64,000 bases of DNA from Arachis hypogaea (Eukaryota; Streptophyta; Magnoliopsida; Fabales; Fabaceae): positions 24,609,940 through 24,673,939 of the forward strand of contig NC_092051.1 in assembly GCF_003086295.3 (NCBI RefSeq), written 5' to 3'. Made by a program: the position numbers and the translations under genes. Shown here in pieces: positions 3,871 to 30,750 of the stretch; position 1 is the first letter of the stretch, and the number at the start of each line of letters is the position of its first letter. The notes below the pieces were generated by a model. It searched no databases. It saw only the letters and a list, made by a program, of their open reading frames with translations, and had not been told where the DNA came from.

Positions 3871-3888
3871 GGTGGGAGACAACCCACC
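3871..3888 (+). other. Stem-loop alpha of E1 (after pol)
   Basis: GGTGGG at 3871-3876 pairs with CCCACC at 3883-3888 around the loop AGACAA, about 40 bases after the last pol stop. The same position in E2 and E3 has the same type of loop with a different but still complementary stem. Function unknown. Confidence 0.6.
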
Positions 3889-8106: not shown

Positions 8107-8145
8107 TTAGCATGAGGACATGCTAATGTTTAAGTGTGGGGAGAT
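8107..8145 (+). other. Stem-loop beta-2 and polypurine tract of E1
   Basis: TTAGCATG (8107-8114) pairs perfectly with CATGCTAA (8119-8126) around AGGA. AAGTGTGGGGAGAT then runs to the first base of the LTR, the expected place for the polypurine tract that primes plus-strand DNA. Confidence 0.7.
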
Positions 8146-11442: not shown

Positions 11443-11480
11443 TTTGCTTGAGGACAAGCAAATTTTTAAGTTTGGTATTG
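11443..11480 (+). other. Stem-loop beta-1 of E3
   Basis: TTTGCTTG (11443-11450) pairs with CAAGCAAA (11455-11462) around AGGA; AAGTTTGGTATT follows at 11468-11479. Confidence 0.65.
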
Positions 11481-11560: not shown

Positions 11561-12594
11561 AGAATGAGACGGCCACTAGGATAACTGAGGTGGTTGAGTT
11601 CCTTTCATTCTATATTTTCTTCCATTCTTATTATGTTATGTTCCTGTTTTCTGCTATTTTACTTGGTTTCTGCATGATCCTTTGTTATTTCAATTCCTAG
11701 GTTCCAGTTTATTTTGCTATTTTTATTCTGTTATTTACTTTTAATTCTGAAAAGTGTCTCATGCATTGCTCATTGAGCTTGAATTCAAAAGAAAAATAAA
11801 AAGATGTATTGCATGAGAAATAGAGTGTATAACAAAGAATAGTCTTATTTACTTAAATGTGGTGGTATTCTCTGTGATTCTGAATGCATGATATGAACAG
11901 TGCATATTTGAATTTGAATCAAAGGATATTGATGTATAAGGAACAGGAATTTAGAGAACTATTATGAATTCTCTGAAGTAAGTGAAAGCTTAATCCTTAA
12001 AGCAAAGGAAACAGCAAAAGAAAAATAAAAGCAAGGTCCAAGGCTCTGAGCATCAATGACTAGGGAGGTCAGACATGATTAAAGGCTCAAAGAATTGTTT
12101 CCCTAGTCATATGCTTGTGGTGTGAATGTGTCAAGTAATCCTTGAGATAGATCACTAAGAGTCGAGATCAAATGCATTTAACAGAGTATGCCAAGGCTTT
12201 GAGCACCACTTGCTGGGAGTAACTGAAAGAAAAAATCAAAACTTAAAGAGAGTTTCCCAGTTAAGTACTTGTGGTATTTTTTTGTATCAAGTAAAGCTTG
12301 AGACAGAACATTTAAAGTCATGGCAAGGCTCAAGGTGCAAAGCATGAAAGAAAAGAGAATTAAAGAAAATTTGTTGTGTTCAACGATTAAACTGAAGTGT
12401 AAAAGATTGGAGAATTCATAATATTATTCGAATTCTAATTCCGAATGACAGTGACATTCCTCTGATTTAAAGGAGAGTGAGATGCCAAAACTATTCAGGA
12501 TTGCAAGTTGTAAACCCCATTTCAAGAAGAGACATGAGATTAATTGAACTCTCACTCTCATGCAAATTCACATCCTAAGCCTATGCTAGTTTTA
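11561..12594 (+). other. E3 3' non-coding region
   Basis: About 1 kb with no ORF. It contains blocks shared with E2 27899-28999 and the paired structural units described separately. Confidence 0.55.
12042..12343 (+). ncRNA. Two tandem predicted three-way-junction RNA units (E3)
   Basis: Unit A: CTCTG (12044-12048) with CAGAG (12182-12186); ATGACTAGGGA (12056-12066) with TCCCTAGTCAT (12100-12110), 11 perfect pairs; then GCTTGTGGTGT; then TCAAG (12131-12135) with CTTGA (12141-12145). Unit B: GCTTTG (12196-12201) with CAAAGC (12338-12343); CTGGGA (12213-12218) with TCCCAG (12255-12260); then CTTGTGGTAT; then TCAAG (12287-12291) with CTTGA (12297-12301). Order and spacing match the E2 units. Pairing was judged by eye; no folding energy was computed. 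Confidence 0.5.
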
Positions 12595-12632
12595 GTTGCT
12601 TGAGGACAAGCAACAATTCAAGTTTGGTGTTG
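12595..12632 (+). other. Stem-loop beta-2 and priming tract of E3
   Basis: GTTGCTTG (12595-12602) pairs with CAAGCAAC (12607-12614) around AGGA; AAGTTTGGTGTTG follows and touches the LTR. Confidence 0.7.
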
Positions 12633-14226
12633 TGATGCGTGAGCATCTTTCCTATCTTTTCATAGTAAATTTGCATTCAATTTATTGAGTTTAATCAAGA
12701 ATTAATTATCTTTTAGCCACAATCGATGCTACTTTAAGTCGTGTGTAATTCTGTTTATTTTAGGAAGCATTCAGCTGGATTTGATGGAGTTTCCGCAGAA
12801 AAAGAGCAGAAGGCAAATGATGCTGTCAACCCTAACCTCTCTGCACTCAAACCTGAATAACTCGAGCTATAGAGGTCCAATGGACGTATTTTTAGTGGCG
12901 TTGGATAGCTAACTTTCAGAGATTTCCAACGATGTATAATAATCTATATTTCTTCTCCACCAAGTCTGCAAGGGTGGCGCCTAACTTGAGAAATCTCAAG
13001 TTAGGCACCAGGATGAGAGAGAGGCGTCCAAGACACACTGCCAAGGCTGCGCCTAACTTGAGAAATTTCAAGTTAGGTGCAATACACAACAACAACATTC
13101 AACCTTAGTTTTGCACTCTTCAAGTAAGGCGCAACCTCTCCTCAAGTTAGGCACAGCACTCAAGCCTTCCACGCCATTCCTCACTGCACCATTCAAGTTA
13201 GGCGCAGCCTTTTACCAAGTTAGGTGTGGACATTAATGAGACAAGTGGTTCCCATTCGTCCTCAAGGCTCACACGGATTGTTTACTTTTAATTCTGATTA
13301 AACCGTATTTTATTTAAAAATAGGAAAAGATATTATTTAGTTTTAGAAAATATAATTTACATTAATTAGGATTAGATATAAAAAGGGAAAAGAATCAACC
13401 CTTCGGGTTCATCTCTTCTCTTCTCTTCTACCTCATTCCGCAATTTAACAGTTTTACAGAATCCTATTTTTCTCTCTGAACCATGAGCAACTAAACCTCC
13501 ACTATTAAGGTTAGGAGCTCTGTCTATTATATGGATTGATACTATTATTTTTTTTTATTTTAATTCATGTACTGATTTCTATTTCAAGAATTATTTTCGT
13601 TTTTTATCTTATGAATCTGAGTGGAATGGAAGTATGACCCTTGTTTTAATTGAGTTCTTGTATAACTTGGAAAAGCTCTTTACTTGAACAACAGCTTGAA
13701 AACAATTTCTCCAAAATTTCTAATTATCTGGACTTAACGAGATACGTGACATATAATCCTCTTATATGGGTAATTAGGGTTTTTGTGGCATATAACTAGA
13801 ATTGAACTTCACCCTCTAATTGGAATCAAGTGACCAAGGAATTGGCGGTTGATGAAGGTTAGGGGAGACTAAAAAGGTCTAAGGAATTAGAGTTTAGTCA
13901 CATATAGTTTGTCATGAATTGAATCTTGCATGATTAAAATAGTTAGTAAGAAAAGTCAATCCGGAAGATAGATATCTCTGAAGCCTTAACTGTTTCTCCA
14001 TATATATTTCACAACTTGTTTACTGTCTGTTTTCTGATTTTCTAAATTACTGTTTGATGCAATTGAACTCTCAACACTCTTTTTTGTTTGTCTAACTAAG
14101 TAAATTACTTAACCATTATTGTTTAATCCATCAATCCTCGTGGGATCGACCCTCATTCACTTGAGGTACTACTTGGTACGACTCGGTGCACTTGCCAGTT
14201 AGTTTGTGGTTACAAATTCCACACCA
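12633..14226 (+). repeat. E3 LTR (about 1,594 bp)
   Basis: Starts TGATGCGTGAGC, ends CCACACCA, and is followed by the primer site as in E2. TATAAAAAGG at 13377-13386 is a likely TATA box. A palindrome array lies at 12973-13229, about 340 bases in, as in E2. Both sides are internal element sequence: 3' end on the left, 5' leader on the right. Confidence 0.75.
12973..13229. repeat. Palindrome array in E3 LTR
   Basis: Two hairpins built from GGCGCCTAACTTGAGA facing TCTCAAGTTAGGC-type arms, followed by single AAGTTAGGCGC half-sites. Same motif as 10790-11044. Confidence 0.85.
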
Positions 14227-14232
14227 AGTTTT

Positions 14233-14250
14233 TGGCGCCGTTGCCGGGAA
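14233..14250 (+). promoter_or_regulatory. Primer binding site, tRNA-Asp type
   Basis: TGGCGCCGTTGCCGGGAA, six bases after the LTR end, matches the complement of a plant tRNA-Asp 3' end with one mismatch. It marks the start of minus-strand synthesis. Confidence 0.8.
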
Positions 14251-14455
14251 TTGACTGTGATTGACAACTACTAGTTGTTTGATTTCTTAGATTAGGCATT
14301 TTTGCTTTAATTTCATTTAACACTAAGCTATTAACTCTCTCAATATCATTATTATTCATTTTAGTATTAAACCCTTCCAATTTTATAGTCTCTATCAATT
14401 ATTATTAGCAACATTCAGCCTCAATATAAGTTACCAGTTATACTAGTACTCTTAA
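14251..14455 (+). other. Leader fragment after the E3 LTR
   Basis: About 200 bases of AT-rich leader (starting ATTGACTGTGATTGACAACT-like) before the sequence changes character at about 14456. No ORF. Confidence 0.4.
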
Positions 14456-14913
14456 TTTTTCAAACCCGAAGCAAGTGGGGCGAACCACGTCCATTGCATT
14501 TACCCGGGGAGCTTAGATATCAATTAATACTCAATTAGCATCATCCGATCATTCAATCATTAACATTTCATCCAGAACATCCCTCAGCGTCACCATCATC
14601 AGCATAAGGGACCTCTCAGTTATTCAAACACAGACAAGACAATATAAGGAATACACAGATAAGAAGAACATATACATCAATTAGATCAAATAGCATATAG
14701 GTACAATTAAGCAAGAAGGCAAACCAAATACAAGATGCACACCAAAACAATACACACAAATGTAAATGATGCATACCTATCCTACTGAGCTCACGTATTG
14801 GTTAAACTGCCAGAATCCGACACATCCGATAGCTAACCCTGACATTGTATCTAGATTGCACATCTACCAGGAGAAAAAACATATTCCAGACTATAACAAG
14901 TCGGTCTCCTCTC

Positions 14914-15172
14914 AGAAGGAGGGTGCCCTGTCACCTTCTCACTGGAGGTATCATTCCGTCTCAGAGGGAGAGTGTCCTGTCACTTGTCTCAGAGAGAGAG
15001 TGTTCTGTCACTTTACAATCAGATAGAACGTGGCCAAAATAACCCAGCACATCCCCAAAAAGGAACATTCTCAGCTTGTCATAATCTGGTCTCAGAGGGA
15101 GAGTGCCCTGTCACTTGGCTCATTGGGGGTATCATTCAGTCTCAGAGAAAAAGCACCCTGTCACCTTCCCCA
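14914..15172. repeat. Tandem motif array in the LTR-like block
   Basis: Five degenerate copies of TCTCAGAGGGAGAGTG followed by CCCTGTCAC, irregularly spaced. Confidence 0.75.
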
Positions 15173-15675
15173 AGTCACCTGGAACCACAGAACAAGAAAA
15201 ATTAACCACCGTCCTTACCTGGTGCAGGTGCCAACGCAATAACCAATCGATACGCAATTGGGATATCACACAAACCTTGCCAATACGGCCAATCAAGCCG
15301 TACTCAGTCATTAGCAGTGTCTTTTAGTAATTTCATAAGTTATTAAACTCATTAACCCCAATCTCTTTGTCAATTTATCAAACAATCAATTCATTAATCT
15401 CAACTCTTTATCAAGTAACTAATTATGTCTTCTCGTGAGTGAGATAGAACCTCCGTCCTCACCGTGGGAGGGATAAAACGACCATTCCCATAACTATGTC
15501 ATCTGGTTTAACCAAACGTTTATCCGAAAATAATTCAATTTAATTCATTCCATATTCTTACACTCATTCAAGAACCCAAAAACAAGTTGTCGGACCTTAA
15601 TTAGGGGTTACGAAAGTTTACAAGCTTGCTGGAAAAGCCAAACAGTTAAAACATAGTTTAAGTGTGAAAATAGAG

Positions 15676-15880
15676 CTTGTGCGTACGTATCACCTTTGTG
15701 CGTACGCACACACTCGAAAGGTTTCCCAGCTTATGCATATGCATGACTCCTGTGTGTACGCACAACTTACAAAATTCCTATGTATGCGTATGCATACCCC
15801 TCGTGCATACTCACGAGCATTTCCATCCATTATGTTTCGTGCGTGGGCACCATTGTGTGCATAAGCACACATACCAAAAA
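15676..15880. repeat. GTGCGTACGCAC palindrome cluster
   Basis: Several degenerate copies of a GTGCGTACGCAC-type palindrome and TATGCATATGCAT-like variants, spaced 20-35 bases apart. It is organised like the arrays in E1-E3, but in a different LTR type. Confidence 0.65.
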
Positions 15881-16863
15881 TTCTGGTTTGCTGCATAATC
15901 ACAAGATTCAGATTTTTAGACCGTTTTTCATTCGTTCATAACTTTCTCTATAAAATTTTGATTTCTTCCATCCATTTTAAAGATCTTTTCATTAGCTTCA
16001 ATTTAAGATAGATTTTACGCAAATCTAAGCTTTGAGAACTAAGTTATGGCGCGACGAAGTTGGTCAAAAACTGATTTTTACCAAATTCACCAAATTACCA
16101 AGTTTCACCAAAACTCCATTCTATTCCTTTTCAAACCATTTCAAAGTCTCATCTATGCAGTTCAACACTCATTCATTACCTTATATCCATTCCATACTTA
16201 ATCAAGAAAGTTCCAACATAGCTGTTCTAATTCCATAAGTTTTCTTTCAATAAACACATTATAATTCAATCACACAACTAAATCATCATTAATCCAATCA
16301 TTAATTCAATTGTGGCAATTCATCACTTACCGCGACTTACCATATAGGGGATATCTCACCCTATCTCGGGCTCCAGCCCAATTTTCCACCTTCACTAGCT
16401 CAAACTCCATCAATGCCACACCAAAGCAATCTTCACTCAATTCTGCACCGAATTTGTACCAAACTAATCCATTCTGTATCAATGCAAACCAATCCAATTC
16501 AATTTCATCTAACCACATTCAATTTTTACAACATTCACACTATGATCATAACTCAAATTCATGAAAAATCAAAGAAAAAAGGTTCTTTACCTTATTTTTC
16601 ATAGTCTTGGATTAAAATCTCGCTAGAACTCATGATGGAGCCTCCCCTAAACATAAAAAATTTGAGATTCCCTCAAAACCCAAACCAAAAATACAAAATT
16701 TTATAGAATGGAAAATTGGGAGAGATATAAATTTTTTACCCCTTTGTTCAAATATAATCGAAGAGAATTTTGAGACGAACGCATGGCTATAAACGGCTTG
16801 TCAATCGGAGCTCCGGATCAAAAGTTATGAGTGATTGAAGGTTGTGGTGAATAGTGAGTTAGG

Positions 16864-16865
<2 letters not shown>

Positions 16866-16932
<67 letters not shown>
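16866..16932. repeat. (CT)n(AT)n microsatellite
   Basis: About 35 bases of CT repeats run directly into about 30 bases of AT repeats. Confidence 0.95.
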
Positions 16933-16935
<3 letters not shown>

Positions 16936-17170
16936 ACTTCTGAATTTTGTGGCCTGTTAAGGATTATATGTGTGGGTTTGGGCCCAACATGGGCTCAGTT
17001 CACTAGTTTTAACCTGTCGGCCTAATTTTGGGCCAAAACCTTTAAGATTAGTGTTTTACTTCATAGTCTAATTATTTTCATTTTCTCAAATTACAAATTT
17101 TAATTTATTAATCCCTTTTGCTCATATTTAATTTATTAATTAAATTTTCATCATTTTTCTGGGTTTTACA

Positions 17171-19200
17171 ATAGGAACCATTCATGGCGACTTTCAATCG
17201 GCAATAGCTTGCAACAACGCCAGCCTATCCCTGAGAAAGAAAATCGCGATGCCATGGGAATATTTTTCGCTGACCAAGATGCAAGGATTAAGGAGCGTGC
17301 CCGACCAGAACCAGAAAGAGACCTAAAGAAAGTGCAAATAGGTGACACTGTGAAAAAATACACATTCCTAAATCAGAACCTACCTTACGAGTTCAAGAGA
17401 CCCCTCTCGACCCTCCTAAAAGAAAATAGAAATCTATTCGCATGGATGCCTACCGACATGCTGGGCTAGATCCAGGGTTCATGTCCCATAGTCTGTCCAT
17501 AAAATCAAAGGCCAAACCAGTTGCACAGAAGAGGCAAAAAATGTCCGTTGACCGGGCAACCGAGGTCAAAAGGCAGACCACGAGTCTACTCCAGGCCGGG
17601 TTTATCCGAGAACTCACCTAATCAACCTGGTTATCCAACGTGGTCCTTGTCAAGAAACCTAATGGAAAATGGAGAATGTGCATGGATTATTTATATCTCA
17701 ACAAGGCTTGCCCCAAAGAATCATTTCCGTTGCCTAGCATCGACAGCCTAGTCCACTCGACTTTCGAATACAGGTATCTAAGATTTATGGATGCTTACTC
17801 CGGGTATAATCAGATTCTGATGCACCAAACTAACGAGCCAAAAATAGCATTCATCTCGCCAGATGGCATCTACTGTTACATAGTTATGCCATTCATCCTG
17901 AAAAATGTCCGGGCCACATACCAATGGCTCATGACAAAGGTCTTTCGTGATCAAATCAGCAAGACGATAGAGGTATACATCTTCGATATGCTCATCAAAA
18001 CCACATAAGCGGGGTCCCTGTTACAAGATTTGCAACTAGTGTTCGAATCCCTCTGCAAGCACGAAATGCAGCTAACCAGAAAAATGTGCTTTCGCCATGG
18101 AAGCAGAAAATTTCTCGGCTAACCCACCGTGGATGACCAGTCCTGGATCCATTAATAGATGTCCAGAGGTTAATAGGGCGATTCACTGCCCTCTTCCGAT
18201 TTCTGGGAACTTCAGCTCAAAAGGCGTTGCCTTTTTTCAACCTGATGAGGAAGGGAATTGCATTCCAATGGACAGAAGAATGTGAGAAATCCTTCCTCCA
18301 ATTCAAAAAACTCTTGTCGGAACCTCTGGTCTTGGCCAAATTGGTTTACGAGGAACTTTTATTCCTTTATCTGGTCATCACCGATGAAGCCATAGGAAGG
18401 GCTCTCATCAGAAAAGAGGATAAACAATAGTTTTCGATATACTTTAACAACAAAGTGTTCGAAAATGCGAAATTGCGATATTCGCGGCTCAAAAAGCTGG
18501 CCTTGGCCTTGATCATCTCTTAAAGGTGGTTAAGACAATACTTTCAGAGCTACCAAATCGTGGTTCACACAAACCAACCCATTAGAAAAGTACTCCAAAA
18601 ATCCAACTTGGCGAGAAGAATGATGACATGGTATGTGGAACTATCACAATTCGACATTTCATACTAACCAAGGCACGCCATCAAGGCTCAAGCCATGGCG
18701 GACTTCTTGGCTGAAATAGCTCACCTAAACCTCATTCTCCTAGTGTAACAGTGGAAGCTCCACATCAACGAAGCATCCAACCAAACCTCTGGCAGTGCAG
18801 GAGTAATCCTAGAGAACTCTAATGGCCTCCTGTATGAGTAGTCTATCAAATATGAGTTTCCTGTATCCAATAACCAAGTGGAGTACAAAGCTATTATAGC
18901 TGGGCTCTCCTTGACCAAACTTGGGGTCAGAAATCTGGAAGTCAATAATGACTCACAAGTCATCACATTGAATGTCAACGGAATATGCCAAGCTCGGGAT
19001 CCCTTGCTCCAAAAATACTTGGAAAATGCCAAAGAATTATGCACAGCCTTTAACGTGGTGATGATCCAGCATGTCCCCCAGGAAAAAAATACTAGAGCAG
19101 ACTTACTGTCAAAGCTGGCCAACACCAAGTTCTCTAGAGGAAACCACTCCCTCATCCATGAGGCGATCAAAGAACCAACAATGATTAGGCTCCCAAGCCC
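17171..19200 (+). pseudogene. Decayed Ty3/gypsy RT-RNase H fragment
   Basis: From 17209 the frames read as the region before RT (PEPERDLKKVQIGD, FAWMPTDM), then RT (VLVKKPNGKWRMCMDYLYLN at about 17640, FMDAYSGYNQI at about 17787), then the active-site region near 17975. There the expected YxDD reads YIFD, so a catalytic aspartate is lost. An RNase H-like domain follows (about 18760-19130) with SGSAGVILEN and later NTRADLLSKLAN. Stops and frameshifts interrupt the frame at 17467, 18006, about 18100, 18428, 18840 and elsewhere. RT type and separate RNase H suggest the Tat side of Ty3/gypsy. No integrase was found. Confidence 0.8.
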
Positions 19201-19859
19201 AATTATCCCCCCTTGGCCTGAGAATCTGGAACCTACCGAATGGCCACAAATCCCTAACCGACATTCAAAATCAAATACGAATCATATCTTTTCCAAATTA
19301 GAAGATCGGACAAGGGAAAAACACTTATATAAGGGGAGTCTCAGACTCCCCCCAAATATGATACACATAACCCTAAATCTCTACTTCTTATATCTATTCT
19401 GAATTGAGTGTTGAAGTGTCTCTGTAGGTCACCCCTCCCTTTCTCACTTTGCCGGATTGAATATCGCGAAGCTCATCACCCTGCTTGGTCATGGATTCCA
19501 TTGTTCAAGGTAACTCGCGAACAAGATCCATTGAGATTCAAATCATAATTTTGATCCATATTACTATGTATGTTCTAAGAAAAAGGAAAAAAGAAATCCC
19601 ATGTTACTCGTGGACATTTCTCTACCATGAGTAGCAAATCAAATCAACCATTATAATAATCATGTAAAGAGCAAGTAAACACACCAGCACATCCAACACT
19701 ACTATATAAGTAGTGAGCATTTCAAGTAAGTTTTTAAGCAATTAAACACACCAGCACATCTCCGAATTCATTAATTATATATATCCAGAGAATAGAAATA
19801 GAGATAGGAATATTGGTGGCTGAGCAGCGCAGTAGTGGAGACAATAATAATGTCCGTTA
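19201..19859. other. Flank of decayed pol, no gene seen
   Basis: A TATA-like CACTTATATAAGGGG at about 19320, followed by GTCTCAGACTCCCCCC, could be the promoter part of that element's LTR. From about 19560 it is AT-rich unassigned DNA into which E2 inserted. Confidence 0.3.
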
Positions 19860-20240
19860 GTGCCTGATGAGTGGATAATTTATACGCTTTTTGGCATTGT
19901 TTTTAGTATGTTTTTAGTAGAATCTAGTTACTTTTAGGGATGTTTTTATTAGTTTTTATGTTAAATTCACATTTCTGGACTTTACTATGAGTTTATGTGT
20001 TTTTATGTGATTTCAGGTATTTTCTGGCTGAAATTGAGGGACTTGAGCAAAAATCAGATTCAGAGGTTGAAGAAGGACTGCTGATGCTGTTGGATTCTGA
20101 CCTCCCTGCACTCAAAGTGAATTTTCTGGAGCTACAAAACTCAGAATGGCGCGCTTCCAATTGCGTTGGAAAGTAGACATCCAGGACTTTCTAGCAATGT
20201 ATAGTAGTTCATACTTTGAACAAGTTTAGATGACATAAAA

Positions 20241-20350
20241 GGGCGTTGAACGCCAGTTCTACGCTACTGTCTGGAGTTAAACGCCAGAAACAAGTCACAA
20301 ACCAGAGTTAAACGCCAGAAATACGTTACAACCTGGCGTTCAACTCCAGA
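20241..20350. repeat. Palindrome array in E2 LTR
   Basis: Four copies of a GGCGTT(G/C)AACGCC-type palindrome or its half-form GAGTTAAACGCCAG. It recurs in the 3' LTR at about 29414-29523 and internally at 25991-26202. Confidence 0.85.
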
Positions 20351-21012
20351 AAGAGCCTCTGCACGTGTAACATTCAAGCTCAGCCCAAGCACACACCAAG
20401 TGGGCCCCGAAAGTGGATTTATGCATCAATTACTTACTTCTGTAAACCCTAGTAGCTAGTTTATTATAAATAGGACTTTTTACTATTGTATTAGACATCT
20501 TTGGAATCATCTTTGGACGCCTGGTTCTTAGATCAGAGGGGCTGGCCATTCGGCCATGCCTGAACCTTTCACTTATGTATTTTCAAACGGTAGAGTTTCT
20601 GCACTCCATAGATTAAGGTGTGGAGCTCTGCTGTTCCTCAAAGATTAATGCAAAGTACTACTGTTTTTCTATTCAATTCAACTTATTCTGCTTCTAAGAT
20701 ATTCATTCGCACTTCAACCTGAATGTGATGAACGTGACAATCATCATTATTCCCTATGAACGCGTGCCTGACAACCACTTCCGTTCTACCTTAGATTGAA
20801 TGAGTATCTCTTGGATCTCTTAATCAGAATCTTTGTGGTATAAGCTAGATTGATGGCGGCATTCATGAGAGTCCGGAAAGTCTAAACCTTGTCTGTGGTA
20901 TTCCGAGTAAGACTCTGGGATTGAATGACTGTGACGAACTTCAAACTCGCGAGTGCTGGGCGTAGTGACAGACGCAAAATGAGGGTGAATCCTATTCCAG
21001 TACGATCGAGAA

Positions 21013-21179
21013 CCTCAGATGATTAGTCGTGCTGTGACAGAGCATTTGGACCATTTTCACAAGAGGATGGGATGCAGCCATTGACAAGGGTGATGCCTCC
21101 AGACGATTAGCCATACAGTGACAGCGCATCGGACCATTTTCTAGAGAGGATAAAAAATAGCCATTGACAACGGTGATGT
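21013..21179 (+). repeat. Two diverged 83-bp units in E2 LTR
   Basis: Units 21013-21095 and 21096-21179 share GATTAG, GTGACAG, GGACCATTTTC, GAGGAT and AGCCATTGACAA in the same order. They are present at the same offset in the 3' LTR (about 30186-30352). Confidence 0.8.
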
Positions 21180-21583
21180 CCTTACATAAAGCCAGCCATG
21201 GAAAGGAGTAGGATTGATTGGATGAAGACAGCAGGAAAGCAGATGTTCAGAGGAACGAATGCATCTCTATACGCTTATCTGAAATTCTAACCAATGAATT
21301 ACATAAGTATTTCTATCCTTATTTTATGTTTACTTCTTATTTAATTTCGAAAACTCCATAACCTTTTGATATCCGCCTAACTGAGATTTACCAGGTGACC
21401 ATAGCTTGCTTCATTCCAACAATCTCCGTGGGATCGACCCTTACTCGCGTAAGGTTTATTACTTGGACGACCCAGTGCACTTGCTGGTTAGTTGTGTGAA
21501 GTTGTGATAAAAAGTTGAGATTACAATTGAGCGTACCATGTTGATGGCGCCATTGATGATCACAATTTCGTGCACCAAGTTTT

Positions 21584-21601
21584 TGGCGCCGTTGTCGGGG
21601 A
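21584..21601 (+). promoter_or_regulatory. E2 primer binding site, tRNA-Asp type
   Basis: TGGCGCCGTTGTCGGGGA, one mismatch to the complement of plant tRNA-Asp 3' end, six bases after the LTR. Confidence 0.85.
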
Positions 21602-23446
21602 TTGTTCGAGTTTGGACAACTGACGGTTCATCTTGTTGCTCAGATTGGGTAACTTTCTTTTCGTTTTCTTTTCAAAAAGTTTTCAAAAAATCTTTCAAAA
21701 ATTTCTCCTTTGTTTTCGAAAAAAATTTTAAAATAAAAATGTTTTCAAAAATATTTTTTTCTTCAGAATTTTTAAGAATGAATTCTAGAGTTTCATGAAG
21801 CATGTTGAAGCATGCTGGCTATAAAACCATGTCTAAATTCTTTTGGACAGAGGTTTTGGCTTAAAATTGAATGAATTACTCCCATATTCATGCTAAAGCT
21901 TGACTGGCTATTAAGCCATGTCTAACTCTCAGATTGGAGCTTTAGATTAAGATTGTAAGATTCCTGGAATTCATATTAAAAATTTTGGAATCCTTATTTT
22001 TCTTTTTCAAATGATTTTCGAAAAATATAAAATAAAAATACAAAAAAATCATAAAATCATAAAAATCAAAAATATTTTTTGTGTTTCTTGTTTGAGTCTT
22101 GAGTCAACTTCAAGTTTGGTGTCAATTGCATACTCATCTTGCATTTTTCGAAAATTGCATTCATGCATTGCATTCATCATGATCTTCAAGTTGTTCTTGA
22201 TAAAACCTTCTTGATTGATCTTCATATTATATTGTTTTGTTGTATGATGTTTTTCATATGCATTCTTGAATTCTTAGTGCCTAAGCATTAAAGATTTCTA
22301 AGTTTGGTGTCTTGCATGTTTTCTTTGCATTAAAATTTTTTCAAAAATATGTTTTTGATGTTCATCATGATCTTCAAAGTGTTCTTGGTGTTCATCTTGA
22401 TATTCATAGCATTTTTGCATGCATTCATTGTTTTGATCCAAAATTTTCATGCATTGCATCATTTTCATGTTTTTTCTCTCTCATCATTAAAAATTCAAAA
22501 ATAAAAAAAAATATCTTCCCCTTTTTCTCTCTTAAAATTTCGAAAACTAGATTTGACTTTTTCAAAAATTTTTAAAATCTAGTTGTTTTTATGAGTCAAA
22601 TCAAATTTTCAATTTAAAAATCTTATCTTTTTCAAATTTTTTTCAAAAAAAAAAAATTTCAAATCTTTTTCACTTTTCTTATTTATTTTCGAAAATTTTA
22701 AAAATATTTTTCAAAAATATTTTTCTTATCTTTATCACATAATTTTCGAAAATAACATCATCAATTAATGTTTTGATTCAAAAATTTCAAGTTTGTTACT
22801 TGCTTGTTAAGAAAGATTCAAACTTTAAGTTCTAGATCATATCTCATGATTTCTTGTGAATCAAGTCATTAATTGTGATTTTAAAAATCAAACCTTTTTC
22901 AAAACTAATTTCAATCATATCTTTTCAAAAATATCATCTTATCATATCTTTTTCAAAAACTTGATTTCAAAATATCTTTTCTAACTTCCTAACTCATTAT
23001 CTTTTCAAAATTTGTTTCAACTAACTAACTAACTTTTTGTTTGTTTCTTATCTTTTTCAAAACTACCTAACTAACTCTCTCTCTCTCTCTAATTTTCGAA
23101 AATATCTTCCCTCTTTTTCAAAATTTCTTTTTTATTGACTAATTATTTTAATTTTTTATTTTAATTTTCAAAAAATTACTAACCTTTTTCAAAAACTATT
23201 TTCGAAAATTACTAACTCTTTTTCAAAAATAATTTTCGAAAATCCTTCTCCCTCATCTCCTTCTAATTATTTATTCATCTACTAACACTTCTCTTCATCT
23301 CACATCACTGCTCCTATCCTTACCCTTGTGTTTGGATTCTTCATTCTTCTTCACCCCTATTCCTTTTCTTCTTCTACTAACAATAAGGAACCTCTTTACT
23401 GTGACATAGAGGATTCCTCTTCTTTTCTTGTTCTCTTCTCTTTCTT
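21602..23446 (+). other. E2 leader, rich in TTTTCRAAAA motifs
   Basis: About 1.8 kb with no ORF of interest. It holds more than 20 short near-palindromes TTTTTCAAAAA or TTTTCGAAAA and two copies of AAGTTTGGTGT (22112-22122 and 22300-22310), the motif that also precedes ORF2 and the 3' LTR. The sequence just before gag is pyrimidine-rich. Confidence 0.6.
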
Positions 23447-25787
23447 ATGAGCAGGAACAAGGAAAAAGGCATTCTTGTTGAAGCTGATCCAGAACCTGAA
23501 AGGACTCTGAAGAGGAAACTAAGAGAAGCTAAATTACAACAATCCAGAGACAACTTTATTGAAAATTTCGAACAAGTAAAGGAGATGGCAGCCGAACCCA
23601 ACAACAATAATGCAAGGAGAATGCTTGGTGACTTTACTGCACCAAATTCCAATTTACATGGAAGAAGCATCTCCATTACTGCCATTGGAGCAAACAACTT
23701 TGAGCTGAAACCTCAATTAGTTTCTCTGATGCAGCAGAACTACAAGTTTCATGGACTTCCATCTGAAGATCCTTTTCATTTCTTAACTGAATTCTTGCAG
23801 ATATGCGATACTGTTAAGACTAATGGAGTAGATCCTGAAGTCTACAGGCTCATGCTTTTCCCTTTTGCTGTGAGAGACAGAGCTAGATTGTGGTTGGACT
23901 CTCAACCCAAAGATAGCCTGAACTATTGGGATAAGCTGGTCACGGCTTTCTTAGCCAAGTTCTTTCCTCCTCAAAAGCTGAGCAAGCTTAGAGTGGATGT
24001 TCAGACCTTCAGATAGAAGGAAGGTGAATCCCTCTATGAAGCTTGGGAGAGATACAAGATACAAGCAACTGACCAAAACGTGTCCTTCTGACATGCTTTC
24101 AGAATGGACCATCCTGGATATATTCTATGATGGTCTGTCTGAACTAGCTAAGATGTCATTGGATACTTCTGCAGGTGGATCCATTTACCTAAAGAAAACG
24201 CCTGCAGAAGCTCAAGAACTCATTGACATGGTTGCTAATAACCAGTTCATGTACACTTCTGAGAGGAATCCTGTGAGTAATGGGACGCCTCAGAAGAAGG
24301 GAGTTCTTGAAATTGATACTCTGAATGCCATATTGGCTCAGAACAAAATATTGACTCAGCAAGTCAATATGATTTCTCAGAGTCTGAATGGAATGCAAGC
24401 TGCACCCAACAGTACTCAAGAGGCATCTTCTGAAGAAGAAGCTTATGATCCTAAAAACCCTGCAATAGCAGAGATAAATTATATGGGTGAACCTTATGGA
24501 AACACCTATAACCCATCATGGAGAAATCATCCAAATTTCTCATGGAAGGATCAAAAGCCTCAACAAGGCTTTAATAATGGTGATAGAAACAGGTTTAACA
24601 ATAGTAAACCTTTTCCATCATCCACTCAGCAAAAGACAGAGAACTCTGAACAAAATACCTCTAATTTAGCAAACTTAGTCTCTGATCTATCTAAGGCCAC
24701 TGTGAGTTTCATGAATGAAACAAGGTCATCCATTAGAAATTTGGAGGCACAAGTGGGCCAGCTGAGTAAAAGGATCACTGAACTCCCTCCTAGTACTCTC
24801 CCAAGCAATACAGAAGAAAATCCAAAAGGAGAGTGCAAGGCCATTGAATTAATCACCATGGCCGAACTTGTGAAGGAAGGAGAGGACGTGAATCCCAAGG
24901 AGGAAGACCTCCTGGGACGTCCAGTGATCAATAAGGAGCTTCCCTTTGAGGAACCAAAGGGATCTGAGACTCATCTAGAGACCATAGAGATTCCATTGAA
25001 CCTCCTTATGCCATTCATGAGCTCTGATGAGTATTCCTCTTCTGAAGAGAATGAGGATGTTACTAAAGAGAAAGCTGCCAAGTTTCTTGGTGCAATCATG
25101 AAGCTGAATGCCAAATTATTTGGTATTGAGACTTGGGAAGATGAACCTCCCTTGTTCACCAATGAACTAAGTGATCTGGATCAACTGACATTGCCTCAGA
25201 AGAAACAGGATCCTGGAAAGTTCGTAATACCTTGTACCATAGGCAACATGATCTTTGAAAAGGCTCTGTGTGACCTTGGTTCAGGGATAAACCTCATGCC
25301 CCTCTCTGTAATAGAGAAACTGGGAATCTATGGGGTGCAAGCCACTAAAATCTCATTAGAGATGGCAGACAATTCAAGAAAACAGGCTTATGGACAAGTA
25401 GAGGACGTGTTAGTAAAGGTTGAAGGCCTTTACATCCCTGCTGATTTCATAGTCCTAGACACTGGGAAGGATGAAGATAAATTCATCATCCTTGGAAGAC
25501 CCTTCCTAGCCACAGCAAGAGCTGTGATTGATGTGGATAGAGGAGAATTGATCCTTCAATTAAATGAGGACAACCTTGTGTTTAAAACTCAAGGATCTCT
25601 CTCTGTACCCATGGAGAGGAAGCACAGTAAGCTTCTCTCATTGCAGAGTCAACCAGAGCCCCCACAGTCAAACTCTAAGTTTGGTGTTGGGAGGCCACAA
25701 CCAAACTCTAAGTTTGGTGTTGAACTCCCATATCCAAACTCTAAGTTTGGTGTTGGAGAGTCTCAACAATGCTCTGAACACCTGTGA
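23447..25787 (+). pseudogene. E2 gag-protease, broken
   Basis: Frame 1 (23447-24016) starts ATG and holds the retrotransposon gag core (FHGLPSEDPFHFLTEFL, then FAVRDRARLWLDSQP and FFPPQK). It ends at a TAG at 24014-24016. A second break follows at about 24053-24066, where ATACAAG is duplicated in tandem (+7). The other frame then continues to 25787 with the gag C terminus (ILDIFYDGLSE, Asn/Gln-rich part) and a retroviral-type aspartic protease. The protease motif is CDLGSGINLMPLS at about 25270, with IILGRPFLATAR at about 25488. The usual plant motif there has Ala or Ser before the second Ser/Gly; this copy reads GSG. The C terminus has three NSKFGV repeats. No zinc knuckle and no RT follow. 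Confidence 0.85.
25672..25757 (+). repeat. Three in-frame 33-bp repeats with the AAGTTTGGTGTTG motif
   Basis: AACTCTAAGTTTGGTGTTG occurs three times in tandem at the end of the protease frame, encoding NSKFGV each time. The same string without coding role precedes ORF2 and the 3' LTR. Confidence 0.8.
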
Positions 25788-25836
25788 GGCTCCATGAGAG
25801 CCCACTGTCAAGCTATTGACATTAAAGAAGCGCTTG

Positions 25837-25852
25837 TTGGGAGGCAACCCAA
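25837..25852 (+). other. Stem-loop alpha of E2
   Basis: TTGGG (25837-25841) pairs with CCCAA (25848-25852) around AGGCAA, after GACATTAAAGAAGCGC. Confidence 0.65.
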
Positions 25853-25990
25853 TTTTTATCTAATTTCTATTTTTATTGTTTTTCATGTTTTATTAGGTTC
25901 ATGATCATGTGGAGTCACAAAATAAATATAAAAATTGAAAACGGAATCAAAAACAGCAGAAGAAAAATCACACCCTGGAGGAAGACCTTA

Positions 25991-26202
25991 CTGGCGTTCA
26001 ACGCCAGAACAGAGCATGGTTCTGGCGCTGAACGCCTAAATGGGCAGCATCTGGGCGTTTGAACGCCAGAATTGCACCCTGGAGAAGAGCTGGCGCTGAA
26101 CGCCCAGAACAAGCATGGTTCTGGCGTTCAACGCCAGAAATGGGCAACAAATAGGCGTTCAACGCCCAGAACAAGCACCAATCTGGCGCTGAACGCCCAG
26201 AG
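25991..26202. repeat. E2 internal palindrome array
   Basis: Seven copies of CTGGCG(T/C)T(C/G)AACGCC(C)AG, spaced by 15-25 bases, with the same core as the LTR array. Confidence 0.9.
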
Positions 26203-26676
26203 TTGTGTGCAAGGGCATTTTGCATGCCTAATTTGGTGCAAGGTTGTAAATCCTTGAACACCTCAGGATCTGTGGACCCCACAGGATCACCTCAGGATCT
26301 GTAGACCCTACAGGATCCCCACCTACCTCCACTCACTTCTTCTCACCCCTCTTTCACACAATCCCATAAACACTCTTCCCCAAAACTCTTCACCAATCAC
26401 CTCAATCTCTCTTCCCTATCACCACTTCACCACTCACATCCATCCACTCTTCCCCATAAACCTACCTTATAAACTCCACCTACCTTCAAAATTCAAAATC
26501 AATTTCCCACCCAAACCCACCCTTATGGCCGAACCTTACCCCCCCTCCCTTCCCTATATATAGCCCTCCATTCTTCCTCATTTTCACACAACACAACCCT
26601 CTCTTCTCTTCTTGGCCAAATACACCACTCCCCCTCTCCTCCATATTCTCTTCTTCTTCATCTATTCTTTCTTTTC
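26203..26676 (+). promoter_or_regulatory. Possible internal promoter and leader of E2 ORF2
   Basis: A long C/T/A-rich stretch poor in G. TATATATA at 26555-26562 is followed by CA-rich sequence resembling plant transcription starts, about 185 bases before the ORF2 ATG. I infer a separate ORF2 promoter; splicing from the LTR transcript is the alternative. Confidence 0.4.
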
Positions 26677-26713
26677 TTGCTCGAGGGCGAGCAATATTCT
26701 AAGTTTGGTGTAG
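26677..26713 (+). other. Stem-loop beta-1 of E2
   Basis: TTGCTCG (26677-26683) pairs with CGAGCAA (26688-26694) around AGGG; AAGTTTGGTGTAG follows at 26701-26713. Relative to the other copies a T-A pair has become C-G. Confidence 0.7.
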
Positions 26714-26749
26714 TAAAATCATAAGCTTTTTGTTTTTCCATTACCATTG

Positions 26750-27898
26750 ATGGCACCTAAGACCGGAGAATCCTCTAGAAAAGGAAAAGGGAAGACAAAA
26801 GCTTCCACCTCCGAGTCATGGGAGATGGAAAGATTCATCTCCAAAGCTCATCAAGACCACTTCTATGATGTTGTGGCCAAGAAGAAGGTGATCCCTGAGG
26901 TCCCTTTCAAGCTCAAGAAGAATGAGTATCCGGAGATCCGACATGAAATCCAAAGAAGAGGTTGGGAAGTTCTAACAAAACCCATCCAACAAGTCGGCAT
27001 CCTAATGGTTCAAGAGTTCTATGCCAATGCATGGATCACTAGGAACCATGATCAAAGTAAGAACCCGGACCCAAAGAATTATCTCACCATGGTTCGGGGG
27101 AAATACTTAGATTTTAGTCCGGAAAATGTGAGGTTAGCGTTTAACTTACCTATGATGCAAGGAGATGCATGCCCCTACACTAGAAGGGTCAACTTTAATC
27201 AAAGGTTGGACCAAGTCCTCATGGACATATGTGTGGAAGGAGCTCAATGGAAGATTGACTCCAAAGGCAAGGCGGTTCAACTAAGAAGACTGGACCTCAA
27301 GCCTGCAGCTAGAGGATGGTTAGAGTTCATACAACGCTCCATCATCCCCACTAGCAACCGATCCGAAGTTACTGTGGATCGGGCCATCATGATTCATAGC
27401 ATCATGATTGGAGAGGAAGTAGAAGTTCATGAAGTCATCTCCCTTGAACTCTACAAAATAGCCGAAAAGTCCTCCCCCATGGCAAGGCTAGCTTTTCCTC
27501 ATCTTATTTGCCATCTCTGTTACTCAGCTGGAGCTTTCATAGAAGGAGACATTCCCATTGAGGAAGAGAAGCCCATCACTAAGAAAAGGATGGAGCAAGC
27601 AAGAGAGCCCATTCATGGAGCTCAAGAGGCGCATGAAGCTCATCACCATGAGATCCCGGAGATGCCTCCAATGCATTTCCCTCCACAAAATTATTGGGAG
27701 CAAATCAACACCTCCCTAGGAGAATTAAGTTCCAACATGGGACAACTAAGGGTGGAACATCAAGAGCACTCCATCATCCTTTATGAAATTAGAGAAGATC
27801 AAAAAGCAATGAGGGAGGAGCAACAAAGACAAGGAAGAGACATAGAAGAGCTCAAGGACATCATTGGTTCCTCAAGAAGGAAACGCCACCATCACTAA
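26750..27898 (+). CDS. E2 ORF2, plant-retrotransposon accessory protein, open
   Basis: An uninterrupted 382-residue ORF starting MAPKTGESSRKG; I take the ATG at 26750, as the in-frame TTG before it is not a normal plant start. Residues 1-25 are Lys/Ser/Gly-rich. The middle (about 60-250) matches the 'putative plant transposon protein' type, with EFYANAW, FSPENVRLAFNLP, RGWLEFIQRSIIP and TVDRAIMIHSIM. Residues about 310-370 are Gln/Glu-rich and probably coiled coil, ending SSRRKRHHH. No signal peptide or membrane segment is visible. It stays open although gag in the same copy is broken. The role is unknown; a nucleic-acid-binding or particle-associated role would fit its basic ends but is inference. 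Confidence 0.8.
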   Translation: MAPKTGESSRKGKGKTKASTSESWEMERFISKAHQDHFYDVVAKKKVIPEVPFKLKKNEYPEIRHEIQRRGWEVLTKPIQQVGILMVQEFYANAWITRNHDQSKNPDPKNYLTMVRGKYLDFSPENVRLAFNLPMMQGDACPYTRRVNFNQRLDQVLMDICVEGAQWKIDSKGKAVQLRRLDLKPAARGWLEFIQRSIIPTSNRSEVTVDRAIMIHSIMIGEEVEVHEVISLELYKIAEKSSPMARLAFPHLICHLCYSAGAFIEGDIPIEEEKPITKKRMEQAREPIHGAQEAHEAHHHEIPEMPPMHFPPQNYWEQINTSLGELSSNMGQLRVEHQEHSIILYEIREDQKAMREEQQRQGRDIEELKDIIGSSRRKRHHH

Positions 27899-28999
27899 GG
27901 TGGACTCATTCCTTGTTCTTACACTCTCTGTTTTTCGTTTTCTATGTTAAGTGCTTATCTATGTTTGTGTCTTATTACATGATCATTAGTAGTTAGTAAC
28001 TATGTCTTAAAGTTATGAATGTCCTATGAATCCATCACCTCTCTTAAATGAAAACTGTTTTAATTCAAAAGAACAAGAAGTACATGAGTTTCGAACTTAT
28101 CCTTGAACTTAGTTTAATTATATTGATGTGGTGACGATGCTTCTTGTTTTCTGAATGAATGCTTGAACAGTGCATATGTCTTTTGAAGTTGTTGTTCATG
28201 AATGTTAAATATGTTAGCTCTTGAAAGAATGATGGCAAGGAGACATGTTATTTGATAATCTGAAAAATCATAAAAATGATTCTTGAAGCAAGAAAAAGCA
28301 GCAAAGAACAAAGCTTGCAGAAAAAAAAAATAACGAAAAAAGAGAGAGCAAAAGCAAGCAGAAAAAGCCAAAAGCTCTTAAAACCAAAAGGCAAGGGCAA
28401 AAAGCCAATAACCCTTAAAACCAAAAGGCAAGGGTAAACAAAAAGGATCCCAAGGCTTTGAGCATCAGTGGATAGGAGGGCCTAAAGGAATAAAATCCTG
28501 GCCTAAGCGGCTAAACCAAGCTGTCCCTAACCATGTGCTTGTGGCGTGAAGGTGTCAAGTGAAAACTTGAGACTGAGCGGTTAAAGTCAAGGTCCAAAGC
28601 AAAAAAAAAAAAGAGTGTGCTTAAGAACCCTGGATACCTCTAATTGGGGACTCTAGCAAAGCTGAGTCACAATCTGAAAAGGTTCACCCAGTTATGTGTC
28701 TGTGGCATTTATGTATCCGGTGGTAATACTGGAAAACAAAGTGCTTAGGGCCACGGCCAAGACTCATAAAGAAGCTGTGTTCAAGAATCATCATACTGAA
28801 CTAGGAGAGTCAATAACACTATCTGAACTCTGAGTTCCTATAGATACCAATCATTCTGAACTTCAATGGATAAAGTGAGATGCCAAAACTATTCAAGAGG
28901 CAAAAAGCTACAAGTCCCGCTCATTTGATTGGAGCTATGTTTCATTGATAGTTTGAAATTTATAGTATATTCTCTTCTTTTTATCCTATTTGATTTTCA
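27899..28999 (+). other. E2 3' non-coding region
   Basis: About 1.1 kb, no ORF. Purine-rich A/G repeats at about 28310-28440 (AAAAGGCAAGGGCAAAAAGC-like, repeated), then the two structural units below. Confidence 0.6.
28455..28733 (+). ncRNA. Two tandem predicted three-way-junction RNA units (E2)
   Basis: Unit A: GCTTTG (28455-28460) with CAAAGC (28595-28600); TGGATAGG (28469-28476) with CCTAACCA (28526-28533), one A-A mismatch; then TGTGCTTGTGGCGTG; then TCAAGT (28555-28560) with ACTTGA (28565-28570) closing a GAAA loop. Unit B: TAATTGGG (28641-28648) with CCCAGTTA (28687-28694), one G-T pair; then TGTGTCTGTGGCAT; then TCCGGT (28716-28721) with ACTGGA (28728-28733). The closing stem of unit B is weak. 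Read by eye. Confidence 0.5.
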
Positions 29000-29037
29000 G
29001 TTGCTTGGGGACAAGCAACAATTTAAGTTTGGTGTTG
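29000..29037 (+). other. Stem-loop beta-2 and priming tract of E2
   Basis: GTTGCTTG (29000-29007) pairs with CAAGCAAC (29012-29019) around GGGA; AAGTTTGGTGTTG ends at the LTR border. Confidence 0.7.
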
Positions 29038-30750
29038 TGATGAGCGGATAATTTATACGTTTTTTGGCATTGTTTTTAGTATGTTTTTAGTAGAATCTAG
29101 TTACTTTTAGGGATGTTTTTATTAGTTTTTATGTTAAATTCATATTTTTGGACTTTACTATGAGTTTGTGTGTTTTTATGTGATTTCAGGTATTTTCTGG
29201 CTGAAATTGAGGGACTTGAGCAAAAATCAGATTCAGAGGTTGAAGAAGGACTGCTGATGCTGTTGGATTCTAACCTCCCTGCACTCAAAGTGGATTTTCT
29301 GGAGCTACAGAACTCAAAATGGTGCGCTTCCAATTGCGTTGGAAAGTAGACATCCAGGGCTTTCCAGCAATATATAATAGTCTATAATTTAAACGAGTTT
29401 AGACGACGTAAAAGGGCGTTGAACGCCAGTTCTATGCTGCTGTCTGGAGTTAAACGCCAGAAACAAGTCACAAACCAGAGTTGAACGCCAGAAATACGTT
29501 ACAACCTGGCGTTCAACTCCAGAAAGAGCCTCTGCACGTGTAACATTCAAGCTCAGCCCAATCACACACCAAGTGGGCCCCGGAAGTGGATTTATGCATC
29601 AATTACTTACTTTTGTAAACCCTAGTAGCTAGTTTATTATAAATAGGACTTTTTACTATTGTATTAGACATCTTTGGAATCATCTTTGGATGCCTGGTTC
29701 TTAGATCAGAGGGGCTGGCCATTCGGCCATGCCTGAACCTTTCACTTATGTATTTTCAAACGATAGAGTTTCTGCACTCCATAGATTAAGGTGTGGAGCT
29801 CTGTTGTTCCTCAAAGATTAATGCAAAGTACTACTGTTTTTCTATTCAATTCAACTTATTCCGCTTCTAAGATATTTATTCGCACTTCAACCTGAATGTG
29901 ATGAACGTGACAATCATCATTATTCCCTATGAACGCGTGCCTAACAACCACTTCCGTTCTACCTTAGATTGAATGAGTATCTCTTGGATCTCTTAATCAG
30001 AATCTTCATGGTTTAAGCTAGATTGATGGCGGCATTCATGAGAGTCCGGAAAGTCTAAACCTTGCCTGTGGTATTCCGAGTAGGACTCTGGGATTGAATG
30101 ACTGTGACGAACTTCAAACTCGCGAGTGCTGGGCGTAGTGACAGACGCAAAAGGAGGGTGAATCCTATTCCAGTACGATCGAGAACATCAGATGATTAGC
30201 CGTGCTATGACAGAGCATTTGGACCATTTTCACAAGAGGATGGGATGCAGCCATTGACAAGGGTGATGCCTCCAGACGATTAGCCATGCAGTGACAGTGC
30301 ATCGGACCATTTTCCAGAGAGGATAAAAAGTAGCCATTGACAACGGTGATGTCCTTACATAAAGCCAGCCATGGAAAGGAGTAGGATTGATTGGATGAAG
30401 ACAGCAGGAAAGCAGAGGTTCAGAGGAACGAATGCATCTCTATACGCTTATCTGAAATTCTAACCAATGAATTACATAAGTATTTCTATCCTTATTTTAT
30501 GTTTACTTCTTATTTAATTTCGAAAACTCCATAACCTTTTGATATCCGCCTGACTGAGATTTACAAGGTGACCATAGCTTGCTTCATACCAACAATCTCC
30601 GTGGGATCGACCCTTACTCGCGTAAGGTTTATTACTTGGACGACCCAGTGCACTTGCTGGTTAGTTGTGCGAAGTTGTGATAAAAAGTTGAGATTACAAT
30701 TGAGCGTACCATGTTGATGGCGCCATTGATGATCACAATTTCGTGCACCA
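29038..30750 (+). repeat. E2 3' LTR
   Basis: TGATGAGCGG to GTGCACCA, the same length as the 5' LTR, followed by the target duplication GTGCC. Confidence 0.95.

Follow-up and report, generated by a model that had tools for sequence, protein, structure and literature searches.

Why do the noncoding 3' ends of two peanut retrotransposons carry paired sequences of the same plan? The question arises from a 64,000-nucleotide stretch of Arachis hypogaea contig NC_092051.1 (assembly GCF_003086295.3, positions 24,609,940 to 24,673,939 of the forward strand), hereafter the window, in which an initial annotation described two tandem three-way-junction-like RNA units downstream of the coding parts of each of two elements, E2 and E3. 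By comparing copies, we show that FIDEL-like elements, which are Ty3/Gypsy retrotransposons with an env-like open reading frame (ORF), encode one or two, usually two, tandem predicted RNA domains on the sense strand of their 3' noncoding region. The predicted stem pairing is conserved while letters and stem length vary between units and families. The units of E2 and E3 would fold as a compact three-way junction, which confirms the initial description in part and corrects its fold.

E2 and E3 each hold two homologous units of 122-135 nt in this region (Table 1). Plain sequence comparison relates U1 to U3 (blastn, 75.6% over 78 nt, E 5e-9) and to U2 (68% over 133 columns, E 0.001), and U4 to the other units only weakly. 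In a structure-blind MAFFT alignment of the four (A1), the pairing columns align without manual shifts, the exception being P3 of U4, whose six pairs TCCGGT/ACTGGA are out of register. The outer stem P1 reads GGCTCT/AGAGTC in U1, GGCTTT/AAAGTC in U2 and U3, and CCCT/AGGG in U4, so that U1-U3 share the consensus GGCTYT/ARAGTC with a compensatory change between C-G and T-A. The previously proposed outer stem, GCTTTG/CAAAGC, is present in U2 and U3 only, and we rejected it as a general P1. Stem P2a pairs GAGCAY with RTGCTT in U1 and U3, contains one mismatch in the window copy of U2 (12204/12267, which is C-G in 23 of 28 copies), and is GGATAC/GTGTCT in U4, where the letters are unlike those of U1 yet all six pairs are standard. 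P2b differs unit by unit and, as had been claimed for P2, has its own complement in each, apart from a few mismatches. The pairs of U1 are mostly kept in the window copy and 27 further E2-type copies.

The P3 base, in which GGYR pairs with a downstream YRNT, revises the view of a constant strand. This strand is present as described, but it is not free, since RTGCTT closes P2 and GGYR forms the P3 base. Its Y position pairs as T-A, T-A, C-G, and C-G in U1 to U4, and its R position as G-C, an A-C mismatch, G-C, and A-T; the strand is invariant except at this Y and this R because those positions change with their partners. Similarly, TCAAG/CTTGA does pair but is merely the distal part of a longer P3. 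No joiner separates P1 from P2, GU lies between P2 and P3, and 1-2 nt lead back to P1. The predicted fold has three helices, and P1, P2, the P3 base, and P3 each include pairs with changes on both sides. The motifs on which the initial description was built lie where it had placed them: ATGACTAGGGA at 12056 (its complement ending at 12110), CTGGGA at 12213, TGGATAGG at 28469, TAATTGGG at 28641, CTTGTGG at 12114, 12268, and 28538, TCCGGT at 28716, and ACTGGA at 28728.

Table 1. Units, stems, and flanking features of the E2 and E3 3' noncoding regions (window coordinates; MFE, minimum free energy; LTR, long terminal repeat)
Feature	Position	Strand	Evidence or remark
U1 (E2)	12042-12163	+	MFE fold z -4.2, column pairs, RNAalifold
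U1 P1	12042-12047/12158-12163		
U1 P2a	12048-12053/12111-12116		
U1 P2b	12056-12066/12100-12110		
U1 P3 base	12119-12122/12153-12156		
U1 P3	12127-12129/12147-12149 and 12131-12135/12141-12145		
U2 (E2)	12195-12319	+	U1-like plan; model match 128 bits, U2 being a training sequence; z -1.8
E2 hairpin GTTGCTTGAGGACAAGCAAC and primer-tract region	12595-12633 (hairpin 12595-12614)	+	sequence; precedes 3' LTR, start ~12633
U3 (E3, FIDEL-type)	28454-28588	+	z -4.2, column pairs, RNAalifold
U3 P1	28454-28459/28583-28588		
U3 P2a	28460-28465/28535-28540		
U3 P3 base	28543-28546/28578-28582		with bulge
U3 P3	28555-28559/28566-28570		
U4 (E3)	28626-28752	+	z -3.6, column pairs, RNAalifold
U4 P1	28628-28631/28747-28750		CCCT/AGGG
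U4 P2a	28632-28637/28696-28701		GGATAC/GTGTCT
U4 P2b	28641-28648/28687-28694		
U4 P3 base	28704-28707/28742-28745		
U4 P3	28716-28721/28728-28733		TCCGGT/ACTGGA
FIDEL274 primer stretch	28748-28909	+	matches 28748-28767 (2 substitutions) and 28889-28909 (4 edits); overlaps U4 3' end
E3 hairpin GTTGCTTGGGGACAAGCAAC and primer-tract region	29000-29038 (hairpin 29000-29019)	+	precedes 3' LTR, start ~29038

With the refined fold, 90.0% of cells pair across the four units. Changes on both sides occur in 13 pairs, compared with 7.3 after shuffling (a value of 13 was reached in 2 of 500 shuffles), and covariation is 0.443, compared with 0.302+-0.040 in shuffles (0 of 500) and at most 0.186 when the structure is slid. 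When RNAalifold was given no structure and the four rows were taken from an 86-unit MAFFT alignment, it recovered P1, P2a, P2b, the P3 base, and P3 at -29.6 kcal/mol; column shuffles (n=500) gave a mean of -4.6, a standard deviation of 2.2, and a minimum of -13.1, and the antisense alignment gave -14.8. Folded singly against 300 dinucleotide shuffles each, the four units have the sense-strand z scores of Table 1, and the opposite strands score -3.3, 0.2, -1.5, and -1.6 for U1 to U4.

Covariation was then measured in a larger set. A model, R1, was built on the four window units, and the set A3 comprises 86 units from the peanut assembly (2.56 Gb, 440 contigs) at E<=1e-10, the L044-type loci described below being excluded. 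In A3, 91.1% of 3008 cells pair (shuffled 85.6+-0.2), 232 cells are changed on both sides (shuffled 69.3+-17.7), covariation is 0.280 (shuffled 0.187+-0.005; slid at most 0.119), and 17 pairs show changes on both sides (shuffled 13.0; 15 of 500 shuffles reach 17). The P3 base, which is absent from R1, pairs in 95.3% of cells, with U-A in 65 and C-G in 18 units at one position and G-C in 61 and A-U in 16 at the other. Without a given structure, RNAalifold found P1, P2, the P3 base, and the TGT/ACA part of P3 both in 16 author-chosen units of a 76-unit set (-21.3) and in 19 author-chosen units of the 86 (-17.2); column shuffles of the latter (n=200) gave a mean of -1.2 and a lowest value of -6.0, and the minus strand of the same 19 gave only -2.8. 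Within U1, U2, and U3, paired columns are less variable than unpaired columns, a difference attained in 187, 18, and 6 of 5000 permutations, respectively; the units of E2 copies were sorted into U1 and U2 by their order in the element (33 of 33). Cells with G-U number 441 of 3010, compared with 141 for A-C, and conserved G-U pairs occupy the second pair of P1 (72 of 86), the first of P2a (81 of 86), and the first of the P3 base (84 of 86). Together with the sense and antisense energies, the excess and conservation of G-U pairs point to the sense transcript as the folding molecule.

The units are widespread in peanut. Searches with the 1001-base E2 3' region and with the E3 3' region returned 9161 and 726 matches, which are first-look candidates rather than copy numbers; the 40 long E2 matches listed are 86-100% identical, accompanied by two short pieces, and the 40 scored E3 matches are 95-100% identical. 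In a sample of 20 ten-kb stretches (200 kb) at mid-chromosome positions set beforehand, R1 gave 21 matches at E<=1, of which 19, in 11 of the 20 stretches, were at E<1e-7. A FIDEL-type LTR start accompanies 10 of these 11 loci, and the remaining one, L040, is FIDEL-like in its units. Both units reach E<1e-7 in 8 of the 11 FIDEL-type loci (the second unit of L047 being split by an insertion); an insertion cuts the second unit of L040, and a single unit is present in each of L036 and L038, with no first unit found upstream. Two units per element, as originally described, is thus the usual arrangement and not a universal one. The notion that the coding parts have vanished also needs qualification, since it applies to the E2 copy in the window and not to the whole E2 family: an env-like frame with stops adjoins at least 3 of 40 E2-type places, ending ~370-430 nt before the equivalent of window position 12000.

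The weakest match at E<0.05, L044 (17.5 bits), led to a unit pair before an LTR beginning TGATGCCAGGGCATC, so that the module is known from three Arachis families (FIDEL-type, E2-type, and a young L044-type), in which it lies ~305-580 nt before the primer-tract hairpin. In the first unit of the L044-type family, P2 has shrunk to CAATGG..CCTTG. The P3 stems of this family are enlarged: GGTGCTC..TGT.GTGAGG pairs with CCTCAC..ACA.GAGCATT, and TGTA.GGGGG pairs with CCCCC.TACA. There are 3948 candidates of this type; the 40 copies that were scored all show 98-100% identity over 421 bases, from which we infer that the family spread recently, and both motifs are present in 12 of 12 fetched copies, one of them the L044 place itself. 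Three L044-type copies lie ~8.8-8.9 kb apart on one strand at G000:C13:60.00-60.02 Mb, which suggests a tandem array sharing LTRs.

More divergent elements carry the units as well. A protein 44% identical to the env-like protein of E3 (P0023) listed 107 matches in a protein search, and both units were found at E<1e-22 in five of five author-chosen 3' ends near divergent env-like matches (56-66% identity). Where most U1 units have GGTG/CACT, L064 and L068 have GGTA/TATT and L065 has the intermediate GGTG/TATT. A hairpin pattern applied to the 200 kb and the window picked out 12 LTR ends in the TTTAAGTTTGGTGTT..TGATG class. Each of the 12 is preceded, within 800 nt, by one or more unit motifs, and seven show two by a strict pattern, at 305-581 nt; the LTR end of E2 was missed by the hairpin pattern yet has both units. 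A scan for the pattern YYTGTGGYRY..TGTR that covered the window, the 20 stretches, and two plant-like contigs considered below (L001 and L002) gave 13 matches, all of them within units. No units were found at three Athila-type 3' ends (L042, L048, and the window element E1), the best unfiltered R1 match in the E1 3' region having an E of 0.25.

Several observations weigh against this picture. A3 is partly fitted to R1, which favors the stems other than the P3 base, and pair types are no more numerous than in shuffles, whether in the four units (405 of 500 shuffles are at least as high) or in A3 (171 of 500). RNAalifold applied to all 76 units together reached only -7.3, recovering the P3 arm and not P1 or P2. 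On a tree of these 76 units (from 78, L044 and the insertion-split L047 unit having been dropped; both are kept in alignment A2), 11 pair-to-pair double changes were counted, which supports the fold, since re-pairing these columns 2000 times gave a mean of 1.4 and a maximum of 9; relatedness is not preserved in this control. They fall in P2a (2), P2b (4), the P3 base (3), and P3 (2), and P1 has none on single tree branches. By a G-test with a tree-based null, none of the single pairs in the 76 units reaches E<0.05. Single-pair tests have little power because the units form four deep groups, and this null result over four deep groups is the main statistical weakness of the analysis. Covariation in a larger alignment, which the initial annotation had made its test, is therefore significant in whole-structure measures (86 units) and not in single pairs (76 units). 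Paired columns of U4 are not less variable than unpaired ones (2900 of 5000 permutations), U2 of the window is weak when folded alone (z -1.8), and the L044-type family has a weak P1 and, in its second unit, a weak P2. Two units are not strictly needed, because L036 and L038 carry one, and the module is not a general need of env-like elements, because the motif is missing from E1, which is of Athila type and has a Transposase_32 env-like ORF.

Some of these points would suit a relic at the DNA or sequence level, in which a tandem duplication and inverted repeats persist while the RNA pairing is unselected. Duplication accounts for the homology of the units, individual copies have decayed since their insertion (the tree has 74 single changes that break a pair), and the tree-null test gives no significant single pair. 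Against such a relic stand the compensatory changes that distinguish the units in P1, P2, and P3, the level of G-U far above A-C, and the sense-strand bias, and we consider it very improbable. Tandem three-way junctions with stems that change together in a conserved noncoding region are upheld on the larger set of units.

Is the module transcribed, and in what kind of element? The LTRs of E3 start at ~19865 and ~29038, and its env-like protein is matched by Arachis hypogaea records (P0002, 87% identical; P0008, 94%), which upholds the attribution to peanut. Four FIDEL primer pairs for quantitative reverse-transcription PCR have been published for Arachis (PMC3496627). Both FIDEL197 primers match both E3 LTRs, as do FIDEL496R and FIDEL412R, in each case with 0-2 edits; FIDEL496F and FIDEL412F match only with 4-5 edits. 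The FIDEL274 primers match 3' noncoding RNA overlapping the end of the module, which implies that this region is transcribed in Arachis. Because published FIDEL primers match its LTRs and its 3' noncoding region, E3 is FIDEL-related, its membership being judged from these matches. A scan of three E3 ORFs gave gag, a Transposase_32 env-like ORF, and an aspartyl protease match that is weak and falls short of the curated cut-off; the reverse transcriptase and integrase domains expected of an autonomous FIDEL element were not found in them.

In regard to function, the domains may act in cis as protein docking sites that favor transcript stability or nuclear export, an interpretation that we hold to be about evenly balanced. 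In this scheme, the full-length transcript, along with any subgenomic env-like transcript, would present paired docking sites to an RNA-binding protein of the host or the element, and the bound protein would most likely promote the stability or nuclear export of this RNA ahead of its translation and reverse transcription. A second copy of the unit could provide avidity or redundancy. The pol-less E3 and the coding-poor E2 copy would keep the module because a trans-mobilized RNA must carry its own cis signals. We infer a cis function from the 3'-end position common to all transcripts, the duplication, the retention in a pol-less element, and the precedent of the element for nuclear expression (ENE) of Evade (PMC12501189).

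The main rival is a packaging or dimerization signal, in which Gag or nucleocapsid would bind the paired junctions and pick genomic RNA for virus-like particles. The presence of the module in E3, which has no reverse transcriptase or integrase that we found, and in families with thousands of candidates fits RNA packaged in trans, and packaging and retrosome localization of Ty3 depend on untranslated region (UTR) or POL sequences (PMC4974528, PMC11381356). A site at the 3' end would, however, mark spliced and unspliced RNA alike, descriptions of HIV-1, Ty1, and Ty3 place the dimerization and packaging sequences in the 5' end (PMC11381356), and no palindromic loop was noticed by eye in the tips of P2 or P3. 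We regard packaging as rather unlikely, and place stability or export slightly ahead of it because of the location in the 3' end of all transcripts and the plant precedent for a stabilizing 3' UTR (PMC12501189).

Another alternative is an aid to plus-strand priming: together with the neighboring GCTTGRGGACAAGC hairpin, the units would give the RNA near the polypurine tract a shape from which RNase H leaves the correct primer. The units co-occur with this hairpin, ~305-580 nt upstream of it (in E3, its GACAAGCAA arm follows the U3 motif by 471 nt and the U4 motif by 310 nt), and a hairpin near the polypurine tract has been proposed to play such a role in Sireviruses (PMC2829016). It is the hairpin itself, however, that sits at the tract, and a similar one occurs in Athila-type elements without units; 300-580 nt would also seem far for RNase H recognition. 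A part in priming is accordingly improbable.

The primer-tract hairpin of E2 and E3 also precedes other LTRs. Its loop is GAGGAC or close to it (TTAGCATGAGGACATGCTAA, TTGCTTGAGGACAAGCAA, TTGCTCGAGGGCGAGCAA), in E1 (8107-8126) as in E2 and E3, and it directly precedes primer-tract-like sequence such as TTTAAGTKTGG. A second copy stands before the position of the env-like ORF in E2 (~11444-11462) and E3 (~26677-26694). A sequence resembling the 3' primer tract, CTAAGTTTGGTGTTG, occurs three times within the end of the gag-protease ORF (25676-25760, NSKFGV repeats). Upstream of U3, at ~28370-28437, are two tandem hairpins, GCTCTT AAAACCAAAAGGC AAGGGC and ACCCTT AAAACCAAAAGGC AAGGGT, whose arms differ compensatorily. 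Another hairpin, with a GGGAGRCAACCC core, follows pol or its place in E1 (3871-3888), E2 (10580-10595), and E3 (25837-25852). Its arms vary in complementary fashion (GGTGGG/CCCACC, TCGGG/CCCGA, TTGGG/CCCAA), and a relative, GGGAGGAAACCC, occurs in a plant-like contig (L001, ~6148) 47 nt downstream of the pol stop. This hairpin is possibly a splice-site or translation element.

Beyond peanut, scans of viral and genome contig collections with the unit patterns gave no match, and protein scans of viral contigs gave no confirmed relative. A protein scan of genome contigs gave three loci, L001, L002, and L003 (32% identity). The first two are plant-like Athila contigs, without the units, in assemblies filed as Solirubrobacter CPCC 204708 and Geminicoccus harenae CPCC 101083; L003 was covered by sequence patterns only. 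The LTR retrotransposon contig in these two assemblies, plant-like and 99.7% identical between them, has an open frame of 2004 aa and is probably contamination.

To our knowledge, few cis-acting RNA structures of plant LTR retrotransposons have been described, and among the open-licence papers listed in searches on such structures, no title or abstract opening describes these units. Rfam covariance models gave three matches in window positions 9000-31500 at E<=1 and none over a unit, so a known Rfam family, whether of ribozymes, exoribonuclease-resistant RNAs (xrRNAs), or others, was rejected. The matches include snoR71 (plant; 23984-24086, minus strand, antisense in the gag ORF; 38.6 bits, E 1.2e-4) and snoR66 (28217-28290, plus strand, E3 3' noncoding region; 27.4 bits, E 0.067), both below the gathering score. 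The units are a candidate new RNA family for annotation. The module occurs in 11 of the 20 sampled stretches, is transcribed nearby, and is present in a recently amplified family; with its wide occurrence, defined fold, and natural compensatory variants, it would allow a retroelement RNA signal to be tested directly in a crop genome.

Among known systems, flaviviral xrRNAs also form tandem three-way junctions in a 3' noncoding region; in the peanut units, no pseudoknot was noticed by eye, and Rfam matches over them are absent. Sireviruses share conserved noncoding motifs upstream of the 3' LTR, namely multiple polypurine tracts with an inverted repeat, including a stem-loop at the tract (PMC2829016). 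They differ in being Ty1/Copia elements with a stem-loop and copies of the tract, and three-way-junction units go unmentioned in the sections of that paper drawn on here. The ENE of Evade/Copia93, an Arabidopsis LTR retrotransposon, is a 3' UTR structure that raises RNA stability and mobility, and like the peanut units it is a structured RNA in the spacer between the ORF and the 3' LTR (PMC12501189). In the ENE, poly(A) is bound by internal loops rich in U, whereas the peanut units are tandem three-way junctions; in MFE folds of the E2, E3, and L044 3' regions, facing U-rich tracts were absent within units and two-sided U-rich loops lay outside them only, so identity with the ENE was rejected.

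Retroviral constitutive transport elements (CTEs) lie near the 3' end and have repeated sites. Like the RTE and MTE export elements of IAP and MusD, which use the NXF1 route (PMC12786077), they are cis RNA structures that take unspliced retroelement RNA out of the nucleus. Their folds are unlike that predicted for the peanut units. According to a 2025 review, RNA export of plant LTR retrotransposons has never been directly studied, and plants do not use the TAP/NXF1 receptor (PMC12786077). It is possible, if doubtful, that the units represent an undescribed RNA family of tandem three-way-junction cis elements in plant Ty3/Gypsy retrotransposons, recruiting a host protein by which unspliced genomic RNA is exported or protected, as a plant counterpart of these transport elements. 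Because plants do not use NXF1, a CTE-like element in peanut would need another receptor.

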